From an uncultured Clostridia bacterium (GTDB lineage: Bacteria > Bacillota > Clostridia > Lachnospirales > Anaerotignaceae), in the NCBI GenBank assembly GCA_944383885.1, contig CALWRF010000040.1, positions 186,001 through 250,000 of the forward strand: a stretch of 64,000 nucleotides of DNA. Direction: 5' to 3'. Position numbers and translations under genes: made by a program. The notes under the pieces are model-generated. The model searched no databases, was not told the DNA's origin, and worked only from the letters and a program-made list of their open reading frames with translations. Positions within the stretch are counted from its first letter, which is position 1. The number at the start of each line of letters is the position of its first letter. Below, in pieces: positions 1,376 to 49,072 of the stretch.

Positions 1376-1436
1376 ATTATAGAGTGCTTCTTTGATATAA
1401 GTATGACTGCAATGTGACGGTTGTGTGAAAAAATTT
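1376..1436 (-). promoter_or_regulatory. Efflux promoter with four phased 11-bp repeats
   Basis: On the minus strand a perfect -10 (TATAAT, 1381-1376) precedes the adaptor gene, but the -35 position reads ATACTT. Directly upstream are four head-to-tail 11-mers, each ending in TCA: 1436-1426, 1425-1415, 1414-1404 and 1403-1393. The last ends exactly 11 bases before the -10. Phased 11-bp direct repeats replacing a -35 are typical of OmpR/PhoB-family activation (family knowledge). No such regulator gene is in the window. Confidence 0.5.
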
Positions 1437-43843: not shown

Positions 43844-46800
43844 TTATTTGGTTTCTTTTGTAGGCTCTGTTACATATTCAAAATGCCTGTCCTCAAAATT
43901 ACGTATAAACCGTATAACCCTGTTCCTTACTCCCGTTATGCCGGAATATAATACCGGTATAAACACAAGTGTTATAAGGGTTGAAAGTGTAAGACCGAAT
44001 ATTATAACTACAGCCAAAGGTCTTTGGGTTTCCATGCCTGAGTCTTGGGAAAAGAGCATAGGGAATATACCTATAACGGTTGTAAGTGTTGTCATAAGTA
44101 TAGGTCTAAGTCTTGCGGGACCTGCCTCAAGAAGCGCTTCATTGCAGCCCAGATTATTATTGCGCCGTAACTGATTTGTGTAGTCCACAAGAACTATGGC
44201 ATTATTTACAACCATGCCTATAAGCATTATAAAGCCCAGCATTGACATGGCTGTTATTGACTGGCGTGTTACAAAAAGTCCCAGCATACCGCCTGTTATG
44301 GCTATAGGCATTGAAAACATAATTATAAACGGATAAAGCAGTGATTCAAACTGCGACGCCATAATCATGTAAACAAGGAGTACCGAAACAATAAGGACTA
44401 TAGTAAGGGTCTTCATCATTTCATTCATTGTTTCAAGGTTTCCGCCAAATGAATAGCTACAGCCCTGAGGCATTATATAGTTATCCAGTTTTTCCTCTAC
44501 TGCTTTCTGGACTTCACTCATTTCAAGGTTATTAAACCTGCCTGTAATTGTAATATATCTTTGCAGGTTCTCACGTGAGATAGTTGTCGCGCTGTCGCCT
44601 ACAGCTATTTCGGCAATTTCAGTAAGCGGTATAAGCCTTCCGTCCTGTGCGGGTATTGTAATGCTCTGGACGTCATTCAAATACTTAGCGCTGTCGCCAT
44701 CATACTTAATTATAACGTCTGTTTCACTTCCGTCCGCTTTAATTGTAGTTGCCGTAACACCGCTTACAGCTGCAGAAACGGCGCTTGCCACTGATGAAGT
44801 CGTTATGCCGTATTTAGCGGCTTTTTCCCTGTTTATTATAATATTGCCTTCTGCTACGGCATCATCCATAGAACTTTTTATGTTTTCAGCTCCCGGTATG
44901 GTATTTAAAAGCTGTACTATGTCTTTCCCAGCCTGTCTTAATGTTTCGTTGTCGTTGCCTTTTACCGTAAGGTATAAATCCGAACCGGAACCCATAGAGC
45001 CCATAGCCATTCCGGAAGCGTATACATCAAGCTCAACCCCGGCTATATCTGAAAGCTTCAGTTTAATATCATCTGCTATCTGCCCTGTTGAGCGTGTTCT
45101 GTATTTTTTATCGCAGAACTGATACTCTAAGCTTACATAAGTTCCGTTTGCCATGGCAACAGATGTCTCTGTTTCCGGTATATCGCCTATAAGGTCAAGA
45201 GCCCTGTAAAGCATTTCCTCCGTCTTTTCAAACTTTGTTCCGTCAGGCATATAAATATAGACAGAGCATGTGCCTTCATCTGTTTCACTCATAAGTCCGC
45301 TTGTAAGAAATGGGTATGTGCATAAACTTGCTATAAATGCCGCTATAACAATAACTGTTGTTTTAACCCTGTGCCTTAAAGCTAAAGAAAGCACTTTTCT
45401 GTATGCATTGTCCAAACCATTAAGGAATTTAAGGCATATATCGCCTAAAAACGCAAATATGAAGCGTTTTTTCAGCCTTCTGCGCTTTTCCTGCCTTGAA
45501 AGCAGCTTTGAGCATGCCATTGGCACAAATGTAAGCGACACCACAAGGGAAGCTGTAAGGGCAAAGCAAATTGTTAAAGAAAGGTCTTTTACAATAGCTC
45601 CAACTGTGCCCGGTACAAACGCTATAGGTCCGAAAACAGCAACAGATGTTAAAGTTGATGCTGTTACAGCCATTGAAACCTCTTTTGTACCGTAGTACGC
45701 AGCATCTTCCGGCGTAAAACCGCGTTTGTAGTATGTATTTATGTTTTCAAGTACAACAACAGAGTTATCAACCAGCATGCCTATGCCTATAACTATACCG
45801 CCCATTGAAATGATATTCATTGTAACGCCGGTTAAATACATCAAACCGTATGTTGCCATTATAGAAGCGGGTATTGAAACGCCTATTATAAGCGATGACT
45901 TATAGTCCCTTAAAAACAGAAGAAGTATAAATACCGCCACAACGGCGCTTTCAAAAGCCGTGCTTGTAATGCCGCCTATTGCTGATTTTATGTAATCACT
46001 TGTTGAACTTAAAAGCTCAATATTTATATTGCCGAACTCAGATGAAAGAGAGTTTATCTCTTTTTGTATATTGTCGCTTACAGTAACTATATTTGCGTCG
46101 GACTGCTTTGAAATGGAAAGCACTATGCCTTCTTCGCCGTTTATAATAGTTTTAATATTCTGCTCTTTTTCTGCCTTTTTAACATCAGCAACATCGCTTA
46201 CATGGATAATATTGCCCTGTTTTGTTAATACAGGCACATTTTTTATATCCTCTTCCGATTTATACTGACCTAAAGCTCTAAGCTGCATGGAAGAGTCGCC
46301 CTGCGTTACACTTCCGGCTCCTGCGTTTGAGTTTTCCCTTGATATGGCGTTTGAAATATCATCTATTGTTATGCCGTAACCGCTTAACCTTACTGGGTCA
46401 ACAGTTACATCTATTTCGTACTGTCTTCCGCCCCATATTTCAACTGCCGATACGCCTTCTATGCTCTCAAAACGGCTTTTTATCCTGTCGTTTACAATGT
46501 TATAAAGGGAATATGCGTTATAATCAGCGCTTCTTACGCCTATAATCATTGTTCCTGTTTCCTGCTGTATGTCGTATTTATATATAGACGGCTTTTCAGC
46601 ATCATCAGGCAGATATGCCATTTCCAGCTTATCCCTTACGTCGTTTGTCTTTTTATCTATATCAACGCCGTCTTTAAACTCAAGTGTTACCTGTGAATAT
46701 CCCAAACTGGAATAAGACCGTATATTTTTTACCCCGGTAACAGTAGAAAGTACTTTTTCCAAAGGCTTTGTTACCATTTCCTCTACTTCTTCCGGTCCTG

Positions 46801-46957
46801 CTCCTTCATAAGATGTGCTTACGGCAATCATTGGATAGTCAATAGACGGCATAAAGGCTATTTCCAGATACTCATGGGCTACCAAACCGCCTAAAAATAC
46901 CATAAGTATTATCATAACTGTTGTTACAGGACGTTTTATTGATATTTTAGAGAGCAT
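43844..46957 (-). CDS. RND-family efflux permease (AcrB/HAE1-like)
   Basis: Proton-driven exporter (1037 aa) with 12 predicted helices and two large extracytoplasmic loops, the full RND layout. The start SIKRPVTTVMIILMVFLGG, the internal GIGMLVDNSVVVLENI segment (aspartate of the proton relay) and the second-half GMVVNNAIVLVDYTNQLRR are typical. In a Gram-positive cell it works with a lipoprotein adaptor and no outer-membrane channel. AGGGGAGG precedes the ATG. It follows the adaptor gene by 3 bases. Substrate unknown: drug, lipid or bile-acid-like compounds are possible. Confidence 0.94.
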   Translation of the reverse strand: MLSKISIKRPVTTVMIILMVFLGGLVAHEYLEIAFMPSIDYPMIAVSTSYEGAGPEEVEEMVTKPLEKVLSTVTGVKNIRSYSSLGYSQVTLEFKDGVDIDKKTNDVRDKLEMAYLPDDAEKPSIYKYDIQQETGTMIIGVRSADYNAYSLYNIVNDRIKSRFESIEGVSAVEIWGGRQYEIDVTVDPVRLSGYGITIDDISNAISRENSNAGAGSVTQGDSSMQLRALGQYKSEEDIKNVPVLTKQGNIIHVSDVADVKKAEKEQNIKTIINGEEGIVLSISKQSDANIVTVSDNIQKEINSLSSEFGNINIELLSSTSDYIKSAIGGITSTAFESAVVAVFILLLFLRDYKSSLIIGVSIPASIMATYGLMYLTGVTMNIISMGGIVIGIGMLVDNSVVVLENINTYYKRGFTPEDAAYYGTKEVSMAVTASTLTSVAVFGPIAFVPGTVGAIVKDLSLTICFALTASLVVSLTFVPMACSKLLSRQEKRRRLKKRFIFAFLGDICLKFLNGLDNAYRKVLSLALRHRVKTTVIVIAAFIASLCTYPFLTSGLMSETDEGTCSVYIYMPDGTKFEKTEEMLYRALDLIGDIPETETSVAMANGTYVSLEYQFCDKKYRTRSTGQIADDIKLKLSDIAGVELDVYASGMAMGSMGSGSDLYLTVKGNDNETLRQAGKDIVQLLNTIPGAENIKSSMDDAVAEGNIIINREKAAKYGITTSSVASAVSAAVSGVTATTIKADGSETDVIIKYDGDSAKYLNDVQSITIPAQDGRLIPLTEIAEIAVGDSATTISRENLQRYITITGRFNNLEMSEVQKAVEEKLDNYIMPQGCSYSFGGNLETMNEMMKTLTIVLIVSVLLVYMIMASQFESLLYPFIIMFSMPIAITGGMLGLFVTRQSITAMSMLGFIMLIGMVVNNAIVLVDYTNQLRRNNNLGCNEALLEAGPARLRPILMTTLTTVIGIFPMLFSQDSGMETQRPLAVVIIFGLTLSTLITLVFIPVLYSGITGVRNRVIRFIRNFEDRHFEYVTEPTKETK

Positions 46958-46960
46958 AAA

Positions 46961-48415
46961 TTATTCCTCCCCTTTTGCAATTTCAGCCGGCTCAGCGCTT
47001 TTTTGGTTATTGCTTTGCGCATCATTTGAATCCGGCTCGCTTATATCAGTATTGCCTTTGGATTCAGCGCTGCCGTTTACAATTCTTACTGTATCGCCGT
47101 TATTAAGGTATGAGCTGCCATTTACAACAACCTCATCGCCTTCATTTAATCCGCTTAAAATCTCAACGCAGGTGCCGTTATCAAGACCTGTTGTTACATC
47201 AACTCTTTGTGCCTTTGAATCTTTAACAACATATACATACTCGCTTAAACTGTCTATAAGCACTGCGTTCTTATCAAGCACTATATTGTCCGAGCTTTTG
47301 TTCTTTACAAACTTAACTTCAGCGAACATTCCGCTTTTAAGCTTCCCGTCAGGGTTATCAATTTCTATTGAAACGGGAAAAGTACCGTCTGTATTGGCTC
47401 CCGGCGCAATTGTGGAAATCCTGCCTTTAAAAGGCTCATTTGAATATGAATCGACAGTTATTTCCGCCGTATCGCCTACAGAAAGGGAATTAACTATATC
47501 CTCCGATACGTTAATCTCTATTTTTACTTTGCTTAAATCGACTATAACAAAAGGCATGTCCCCAGTTAAAACAGAGCCTGATACAGCATTACAGCTTAAA
47601 ACAGTGCCTGATATAGGGCTTTTAACATTTGAGTCCGCAATATCCTTTTTATAAGACTGCATTTGAGCCGCCTGAGCATTCTTTTGGGCTATGGCTGAGT
47701 CAAGGCTGTTCTGGGCGCGTTTCTTATTTTCAGCCAATGTCTCATTTACAAGCAAATCGTAGCTGTACTGAGCCGAGTCAAGAGCTTCTTTGGCATCTTT
47801 AGTGTTTCTCTCAGCTTCGTCATAGGCGTTTTTAAGATTTGTAAGCTCTGTCTGTGAAACAGCGCCGCTTGAAAACAGTGCGTTTGCCGAATCATAATCT
47901 CTTTTGGCTGTATCAAGCTGCGCCTTTGCCGTATCATAAGACCTTTGTGCCGATGAAACCGCCGTTTTGCTGTTTTCTATCTGCTGCTTCATTTGAGAGC
48001 CTTCCACCTGTTCCAGTTCTGTTTGGGCTGACTGTATATTGGCATCTGCTGAAGCAAGCGACGCGTTTAACACATTTATATTATTTTGAATGTCGGAAAT
48101 ATCCAGGCTGAAAAGCACATCTCCTGCTTTAACACTGTCCCCAACATCAAAGTTTACGTCTGTTACCTTTACACCTGTTCTTGGAGAAGCTACCTCTACG
48201 GTTTTAAATGGCTGCACCGTACCGGAAAACATTGATTTTTCCTCAATAGCCCCTTTTTTAACAATACTTGTTTCAACAGCTACGCTGTCAGGGTCGTAAT
48301 AAGCTGAATCGGCAGATGACACAGATGAAGATGCCGCCGGAGTACCGGATTGTCCGCAGCCGGATAAAACTGCTGCGCATAATATAAAAGCTATTGGCAA
48401 AGTCTTATGTTTCAC
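46961..48415 (-). CDS. RND efflux adaptor, lipoprotein
   Basis: Membrane-fusion subunit (484 aa). Lipoprotein signal with lipobox LSGC and lipidated Cys20; then a lipoyl half (GTVQPFKTVEVASPRTG), a long coiled coil (about 105-240), the second lipoyl half (VKSPISGTVLSC) and beta-barrel/membrane-proximal domains. The tail after about 440 is Ser/Asn/Asp-rich and probably disordered. Start is GTG 48415 with GGAGG upstream. First gene of the two-gene pump operon. Compare the transmembrane adaptor at 1-1296. Confidence 0.92.
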   Translation of the reverse strand: MKHKTLPIAFILCAAVLSGCGQSGTPAASSSVSSADSAYYDPDSVAVETSIVKKGAIEEKSMFSGTVQPFKTVEVASPRTGVKVTDVNFDVGDSVKAGDVLFSLDISDIQNNINVLNASLASADANIQSAQTELEQVEGSQMKQQIENSKTAVSSAQRSYDTAKAQLDTAKRDYDSANALFSSGAVSQTELTNLKNAYDEAERNTKDAKEALDSAQYSYDLLVNETLAENKKRAQNSLDSAIAQKNAQAAQMQSYKKDIADSNVKSPISGTVLSCNAVSGSVLTGDMPFVIVDLSKVKIEINVSEDIVNSLSVGDTAEITVDSYSNEPFKGRISTIAPGANTDGTFPVSIEIDNPDGKLKSGMFAEVKFVKNKSSDNIVLDKNAVLIDSLSEYVYVVKDSKAQRVDVTTGLDNGTCVEILSGLNEGDEVVVNGSSYLNNGDTVRIVNGSAESKGNTDISEPDSNDAQSNNQKSAEPAEIAKGEE

Positions 48416-48469
48416 TTTGTTATGCCTCCTTTAATTATTTTCATTAACTGAATTTTTCTTTTCAGTATA

Positions 48470-48525
48470 ATTATACATATATTGGGGCATGTTGTTTCTT
48501 AAGATTAGTTTAAATGATTCTTAAG
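48470..48525 (-). promoter_or_regulatory. RND-operon promoter with three phased 11-bp repeats
   Basis: On the minus strand TATAAT (48475-48470) has no -35: that position reads GAAACA. Upstream are three 11-mers with a TTAA core: CTTAAGAATCA (48525-48515), TTTAAACTAAT (48514-48504) and CTTAAGAAACA (48503-48493), the last overlapping the -35 position. This fits activation by an OmpR/PhoB-family regulator (inference). Confidence 0.5.
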
Positions 48526-48544: not shown

Positions 48545-48589
48545 ATACAGTAAAAATCAATATTTTTCATATACAGTGTGATACTGTAT
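48545..48589. promoter_or_regulatory. ATACAGT half-site cluster
   Basis: ATACAGT occurs at 48545-48551 and 48571-48577, and its complement ACTGTAT at 48583-48589; the last two form a palindrome with a 5-base spacer. It lies upstream of the RND promoter and looks like a repressor site. Confidence 0.4.
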
Positions 48590-48604
48590 TATAAATTAAC
48601 GCAA

Positions 48605-48649
48605 ATAAAAAAGCGTTTATTAAACATATTTCTGCTTAAATAAACGCTT
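48605..48649 (-). terminator. Terminator of the yjbQ-like gene
   Basis: AAGCGTTTATT pairs with AATAAACGCTT (48611-48621, 48639-48649), then a T-rich run on the minus strand. Confidence 0.8.
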
Positions 48650-48667: not shown

Positions 48668-49072
48668 TCAGCCTTCAATTATTTTTACAAAAACCGTTCT
48701 GTTTCGCGGTCCGTCAAACTCGGCAAAATATATATCCTGCCACATGCCCAAAACCGGCTTTGAATCACTTATTATTACCGTTTGGCTAAAACCCATTAAA
48801 GACGCCTTGATATGCGATGCCGAGTTGCCTTCACAATGAAGATAATTGTCTTCTAAAGGCACTATTTTATCAAGCTCAGTAAGAATATCTTTTTTTACAT
48901 CGGGGTCGGCATTTTCGTTAATTGTAATACCGCCTGTTGTGTGGCTGGAAAATACAACGCAAATGCCGTTTTTAACGCCGCTTTTATATATAATCTCTTT
49001 AACTTGAGGAGTAATATCCACAAGCTGGTTTCTGAATGATGTTTTAACTTTAAAAGAACAAACTTCCGACAT
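48668..49072 (-). CDS. YjbQ/UPF0047 family protein
   Basis: Small soluble protein (134 aa). SSHTTGGITINENADPDV and HCEGNSASHIKASLMG carry the His/Glu residues conserved in the family; WQDIYFAEFDGPRNR is the end signature. Some homologues have weak thiamine-phosphate synthase activity, but the physiological role is unknown. AGGAGG precedes the ATG. No clear operon partner. Confidence 0.9.
   Translation of the reverse strand: MSEVCSFKVKTSFRNQLVDITPQVKEIIYKSGVKNGICVVFSSHTTGGITINENADPDVKKDILTELDKIVPLEDNYLHCEGNSASHIKASLMGFSQTVIISDSKPVLGMWQDIYFAEFDGPRNRTVFVKIIEG

Follow-up and report, generated by a model that had tools for sequence, protein, structure and literature searches.

We uncovered a conserved array of direct repeats at the promoter of an RND efflux operon in the window, i.e., the whole 64,000-nucleotide stretch analyzed here, together with a candidate for the protein that reads it. 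Probably the array is bound by an OmpR/PhoB-family regulator, for which the likeliest candidate is the VanR-like protein L054 of the same genome (G000); this protein would activate the RND operon. Since the boxes at the pump are conserved and similar boxes precede the gene of this regulator, the sensor–regulator pair to which it belongs probably controls the pump. From comparison across genomes, it appears well supported that the pump promoter holds a regulatory site of an ordinary kind, one to which a candidate regulator can now be assigned. An efflux pump of the little-studied gut Clostridia—one member of the genus is recorded as Candidatus Neoanaerotignum tabaqchaliae—thereby gains a testable candidate regulator, and the comparison suggests that an intrinsic VanR-like system is linked to efflux and, possibly, to the synthesis of teichoic acids. 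The case also indicates that comparison alone can pair a promoter array spotted by eye with a candidate regulator.

The array and promoter of the RND efflux operon

Genes for an adaptor and a permease, the two that define an RND efflux operon, are both present at 43844-48415 (Table 1), this pair sitting in a genome of the Clostridia. Read 5′ to 3′ on the minus strand from 48525 to 48470, the region upstream of them consists of CTTAAGAATCA TTTAAACTAAT CTTAAGAAACA, then 17 bases and then TATAAT. A sequence-only reading of this DNA had described three 11-mers with TTAA cores at exact 11-base steps, which is what the sequence holds; its further statement that they overlap a missing -35 is true of the full third 11-mer, CTTAAGAAACA, which covers the -35 position, whereas the core CTTAAG of that unit touches the position by 1 base only. 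A TTGACA-like -35 is absent from the pump promoter, the hexamer at the 17-bp spacing being GAAACA, and the consensus promoter scan listed no minus-strand promoter. The third core lies 22 bp from TATAAT in the own genome. The site displays two features of an OmpR/PhoB-family array, namely tandem repeats at steps of about 11 bp, the register of which is kept in all six genus genomes examined, and an adjoining promoter that combines a good -10 with a poor -35. In the own species, 22 of the 28 positions of the array are also symmetric, making it a near-palindrome.

The pattern TTAA-N7-TTAA-N7-TTAA occurs nowhere else in the window; in dinucleotide shuffles of the window it has a mean of 0.07 and appears at least once in 6 of 100, so that the pattern by itself is uncommon but could arise by chance. 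Spelled out in full, the array is found, at 0 mismatches, once in the genome, with the next sites having 3 mismatches. Given that the pattern was picked after it had been seen, the case for the array rests on its conservation.

The RND operon probably has its own promoter at the array, since an inverted repeat followed by T-rich DNA comes after the upstream UPF0047-family gene; the terminator scan, with a loop-length limit of 8, reported none at this place. A separate inverted repeat, ATACAGT...ACTGTAT, lies at 48570-48590 of the window, about 100 bp ahead of the pump promoter, and none was seen in the aligned upstream region of the nearest relative.

Table 1. Window coordinates of the RND operon, its promoter array and the promoter array of the other pump
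Feature	Position	Strand	Basis or remark
Three-box array CTTAAG-N5-TTTAAA-N5-CTTAAG	48498..48525	-	exact 11-bp steps; recognizable in 6/6 genus genomes
11-mer units of the pump array	48515-48525, 48504-48514, 48493-48503	-	
6-bp cores of the pump array	48520-48525, 48509-48514, 48498-48503	-	
-10 box TATAAT, inside conserved TATGTATAAT	48470..48475	-	direct reading and alignment
Non-consensus -35 position GAAACA	48493..48498	-	17-bp spacing to -10; under the third 11-mer
RND efflux periplasmic adaptor (MFP), GTG start at 48415	46961..48415	-	TIGR01730 above cut-off
RND permease (ACR_tran)	43844..46957	-	above Pfam cut-off; best NCBIfam model below its cut-off
Ribosome-binding site AGGAGG	48425..48430	-	direct reading
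UPF0047-family gene, upstream of the pump promoter	48668-49072	-	
Inverted repeat then T-rich DNA, probable terminator of the UPF0047 gene	48611..48649	-	by eye
Comparison array at the other pump, plus-strand TTTGA/TATGA/TGTGA/TGTGA starting at 1391, 1402, 1413, 1424	1376..1428	-	reading and alignment
TATAAT of the other pump	1376-1381	-	

Conservation of the array

Relatives of the adaptor are encoded in five other genomes of the genus, with identities of 85, 83, 70, 63 and 57%. Across the six aligned upstream regions the mean column conservation is 0.84 for the array and 0.98 for the -10 stretch, as against 0.69 for the spacer, 0.71 for the leader and 0.58 for the 120 bp upstream; accordingly, the array and the -10 are recognizable in all six genomes while the flanks drift. 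The distance from the third core to the -10 is 22 bp in five of them and 21 bp in the sixth. Free variation of the repeats among close relatives, which the sequence-only reading had named as the outcome that would speak against it, is not what the alignment displays: single bases drift and the first and middle boxes vary, with altered cores such as CTTCAT in G004 (first box) and ATTAAT in G005, while neither the 11-bp register nor the -10 is lost in any of the six genomes. G004 even has two extra boxes at the 11-bp step farther upstream of the array.

Beyond the genus, the adaptor nearest to that of the pump (53% identity, in G017, where the regulator match is only 44%) has no clear array in its upstream region (best pair 7.7), where TTAAG repeats at a 10-bp step are discernible by eye; this single case counts in favor of the pairing of array and regulator. 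Among 20 farther adaptor upstreams from outside the genus, which probably do not belong to orthologues, only that of G020 scored high (19.8). Within the own genome the two-box pattern was found 88 times, versus 42 for a reversed control, among the matches listed, and is too frequent to be used alone.

The candidate regulator and the rival readings

The own genome has 13 genes with the PF00486 domain, and the six genomes together have 63 such places, 58 of which were clustered into orthologues, the 5 left out being among the weakest matches. One of these groups, cluster 2, has a member in every one of the six genomes, that of the own genome being L054, and its upstream regions carry CTTAAA-N5-CTTAAG or near variants in all six. 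L054 (at G000:C18) belongs to the OmpR family, and its gene overlaps one for a HisKA-domain sensor kinase of 643 aa. Among the NCBIfam models L054 matches vanR_ACDEGLN best, reaching 272 bits versus a cut-off of 350, and hence we call it VanR-like, not VanR; it is also the best match to VanR-A among the 13 PF00486 genes (46%, 213 bits; the next reaches 184). Relatives at an E-value of 1e-60 or better were found in 44 of 59 genomes. Tandem boxes, counted in the exact form CTTAA-N6-YTTAA, lie upstream of 11 of the 13 regulator orthologues whose upstreams were read—in 6/6 genomes of the genus, in 4/6 from other genera of the family and in G030 from another family—and the remaining two (L160 and L161) have a looser series of TTAA. 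Of the 17 upstreams in the remoter group B, 4 were viewed, and some of these show, by eye, TAAG repeats at an 11-bp step. In the promoter of L054 the first box stands 52 bp from the -10, compared with 50 bp at the pump, and its third element is out of the 11-bp register with the first two.

The likeness between the two kinds of promoters was scored in both directions. With a matrix built from the pump promoters alone and scored, by best pair, on the upstreams of the regulator clusters (L047, at a contig end, being left out), cluster 2 attained the highest mean, 14.7 over six genomes (10.6-17.0); the other scored clusters gave 1.9-11.0, the value of 11.0 coming from a cluster in 2 genomes and 9.2 from one in 5. 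On 255 tiles of the window the same matrix reaches 13.9 at the 99th percentile and 15.9 at most; the 10.6 of the G004 regulator promoter is only at about the 95th percentile of the tiles. The converse matrix was built from regulator promoters alone (22 units from 11 of the 13, L160 and L161 being left out as they are without the exact pattern). With it, the pump site ranked first among the window triples at 11-bp steps, at 23.4 versus 15.5 for the next place, a score that belongs to the strand opposite the pump gene, the gene strand giving 12.5, which is below the 15.5 elsewhere and near the shuffle mean. In 100 shuffles the maxima of the triple scores averaged 11.8, with a highest of 21.0. 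The better-scoring strand is the opposite one in G000, G003 and G001 and the gene strand in G004, G005 and G002; the pump array of G005 is weak (9.4). When the step was varied, triples at 15 bp reached 21.4 at an unrelated place (51583), and those at steps of 8-10 and 12-14 stayed at or below 16.7. The two-box score of the pump site, 19.2, is not above the shuffles, whose maxima average 16.0 and go up to 22.3.

The other pump in the window provides a parallel. Its promoter at 1376-1436 had been said to be mirrored by the one studied here: the 11-bp step is indeed common to both and the sequences differ, but the array of the other pump ends 9 bp before TATAAT in the own genome, versus 22 bp at the RND operon. 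Its six aligned upstreams have boxes of the TTCACA, GTCACA, GTCATA and ATCAAA types at 11-bp steps, with the strict pattern in five of the six genomes and TACAAT in G002. By eye, this array looks like the promoter of another response regulator, L055 of cluster 3, which has TCATA-N6-TCACA-N9-TATAAT exactly in 4/6 genomes and variants in G002 and G004. With these two likenesses, each pump appears to resemble the promoter of a different regulator, and the earlier proposal of a second response regulator in control of the second pump gains support from the comparison.

If L054 is indeed the regulator, its phosphorylated form would sit on the repeats along a single side of the helix, as set by the 11-bp steps, and from there, next to a promoter whose -10 is good but whose -35 is poor, it would help RNA polymerase to transcribe the adaptor and permease genes. 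We infer activation rather than repression from the poor -35 and the position of the array. Besides the pump promoter, the regulator would occupy its own and, probably, the one ahead of an LTA-synthase-like gene, with envelope or antibiotic stress as the presumed signal; the binding and its dependence on phosphorylation are presumed likewise. Tandem boxes precede the LTA-synthase-like gene (Sulfatase domain) in G000, G003, G005, G001 and G004, and in G000 these stand 22 bp before TAAAAT. The upstreams of this gene score 11.2, 11.2, 1.8, 11.8 and 23.0 with the regulator-only matrix, an unevenness that makes it only a probable target of the VanR-like regulator. The boxes at these loci (L072, L074, L078, L191 and L192, from the five genomes examined, G002 being left out) are of the CTTAAATAAAC/TTTAATAAAAA type, and a divergent GntR/FCD regulator gene sits beside the LTA-synthase-like gene in G000. 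Upstream of the paralogous RND pump (G000:C40:22336, adaptor L185) we found no comparable array (best 6.7). By eye, a MarR-like gene precedes this adaptor, and TCATTAAAAATATTTAATGA-like palindromes lie nearby in relatives.

It is conceivable, though we consider it rather unlikely, that another OmpR-family regulator (e.g., of clusters 0, 1 or 3) binds the array and perhaps controls the L054 gene as well. These three clusters are likewise represented in 6/6 genomes, as is cluster 4, whose short protein lacks the usual receiver motif at the start of its reading, and a matching promoter alone is no proof that L054 regulates itself. The upstream means of clusters 0, 1 and 3 with the pump-only matrix are, however, just 6.9, 5.2 and 8.3, and cluster 3 carries a different array in its own promoter. 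The low values of clusters 0 and 1 have to be read with the coding sequence that by eye lies upstream of both, on account of which their operon promoters may fall outside the scored DNA; the whole 3.2-kb loci L044 and L045 have best pairs of 10.2 and 10.5, compared with 14.6 for L054, with a matrix that included the LTA-gene boxes. Clusters 5, 6 and 7 are each absent from one array-bearing genome, a weak point against them as some of the genomes are drafts and 5/63 places were left out.

A different kind of reader, a dimeric repressor of the TetR or MarR type that takes the 28 bp as its operator, is improbable: the symmetry of 22/28 in the own species and G003, to which one may add the MarR-like gene ahead of the paralogous pump, drops to 16-20/28 in the other four species while the 11-bp register stays unchanged, and G004 has two further boxes upstream at the 11-bp step. 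We regard a mere chance repeat in AT-rich intergenic DNA as very improbable, for despite the 6 shuffles in 100 with a TTAA triple, the array recurs in every one of the six genomes at a near-fixed distance from the -10. Binding by an OmpR/PhoB-family protein, with L054 as the foremost candidate, stays our preferred reading.

Relationship to known systems

Tandem boxes of the PhoB/OmpR type are repeats of about 11 bp beside a poor -35, an arrangement seen also at the pump, although the box sequence there differs from that of PhoB/OmpR-type boxes in general. Our searches of the open-licence literature returned nothing on the pump promoter itself. The VanR boxes of enterococcal van operons (vanA PR/PH and vanG PYG) parallel the pump array in their direct repeats, in a poor -35 at PYG and, as proposed for the pump, in an OmpR-family regulator. 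At the vanG PYG promoter VanRG has three sites, each a direct repeat of the form (T/C)CGTANGAAA(T/A)T, and downstream of them come the non-conserved -35 hexamer AAAACA and the -10 TACAAT (PMC4405338). The enterococcal VanR box differs in having G as its third base, where the pump-type box has T, and the targets proposed here, the RND pump and, as a probable one, the LTA-synthase-like gene, are unlike the van operons of enterococci. Scored with TCGTANGAAATT, the three pump boxes fit the VanR consensus at 9, 7 and 5 of 12 positions, and the vanR promoter's own box at 11/12. Conversely, the vanR promoter of an Enterococcus plasmid, TCTTAAGAAATTCTTAGTCATTT, scores 20.0 with our regulator-only matrix. 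It has TCTTAAGAAATT 50 bp before TATAAT (first box to -10), and an extra CTTA element at +34 is shared by the enterococcal vanR and L054 promoters. These likenesses allow the speculative proposal, which we hold only tentatively and consider rather unlikely, that an intrinsic VanR-like system of these gut Clostridia runs a small envelope-defense regulon comprising itself, the RND pump and the LTA-synthase-like gene, and that the acquired VanR of enterococci has kept the ancestral box and promoter geometry.

A second line of similarity leads to the streptococcal CiaR, which reads the direct repeat NTTAAG-N5-TTTAAG (PMC3091779). The pump site departs from it in the last base (TTTAAA), and the exact CiaR form occurs, on the strand opposite the gene, in four of the six regulator promoters (G000, G003, G004 and G001). 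The pump also differs from the CiaR systems in having three boxes, of which TTTAAA is the middle one, and the two are likened by box sequence alone. A CiaR-like regulator of Bacillus anthracis, BAS0540, comes still nearer: its phosphorylated form gel-shifts the DNA upstream of its own gene and that upstream of the RND adaptor gene BAS5106, where the site TTTAAGN5TTTAAG lies upstream of a predicted -35 and the authors infer positive regulation (PMC4938410). BAS0540 at an RND adaptor gene is the closest published parallel to the pump array, which would be a new example, at an RND efflux promoter, of a known kind of control.
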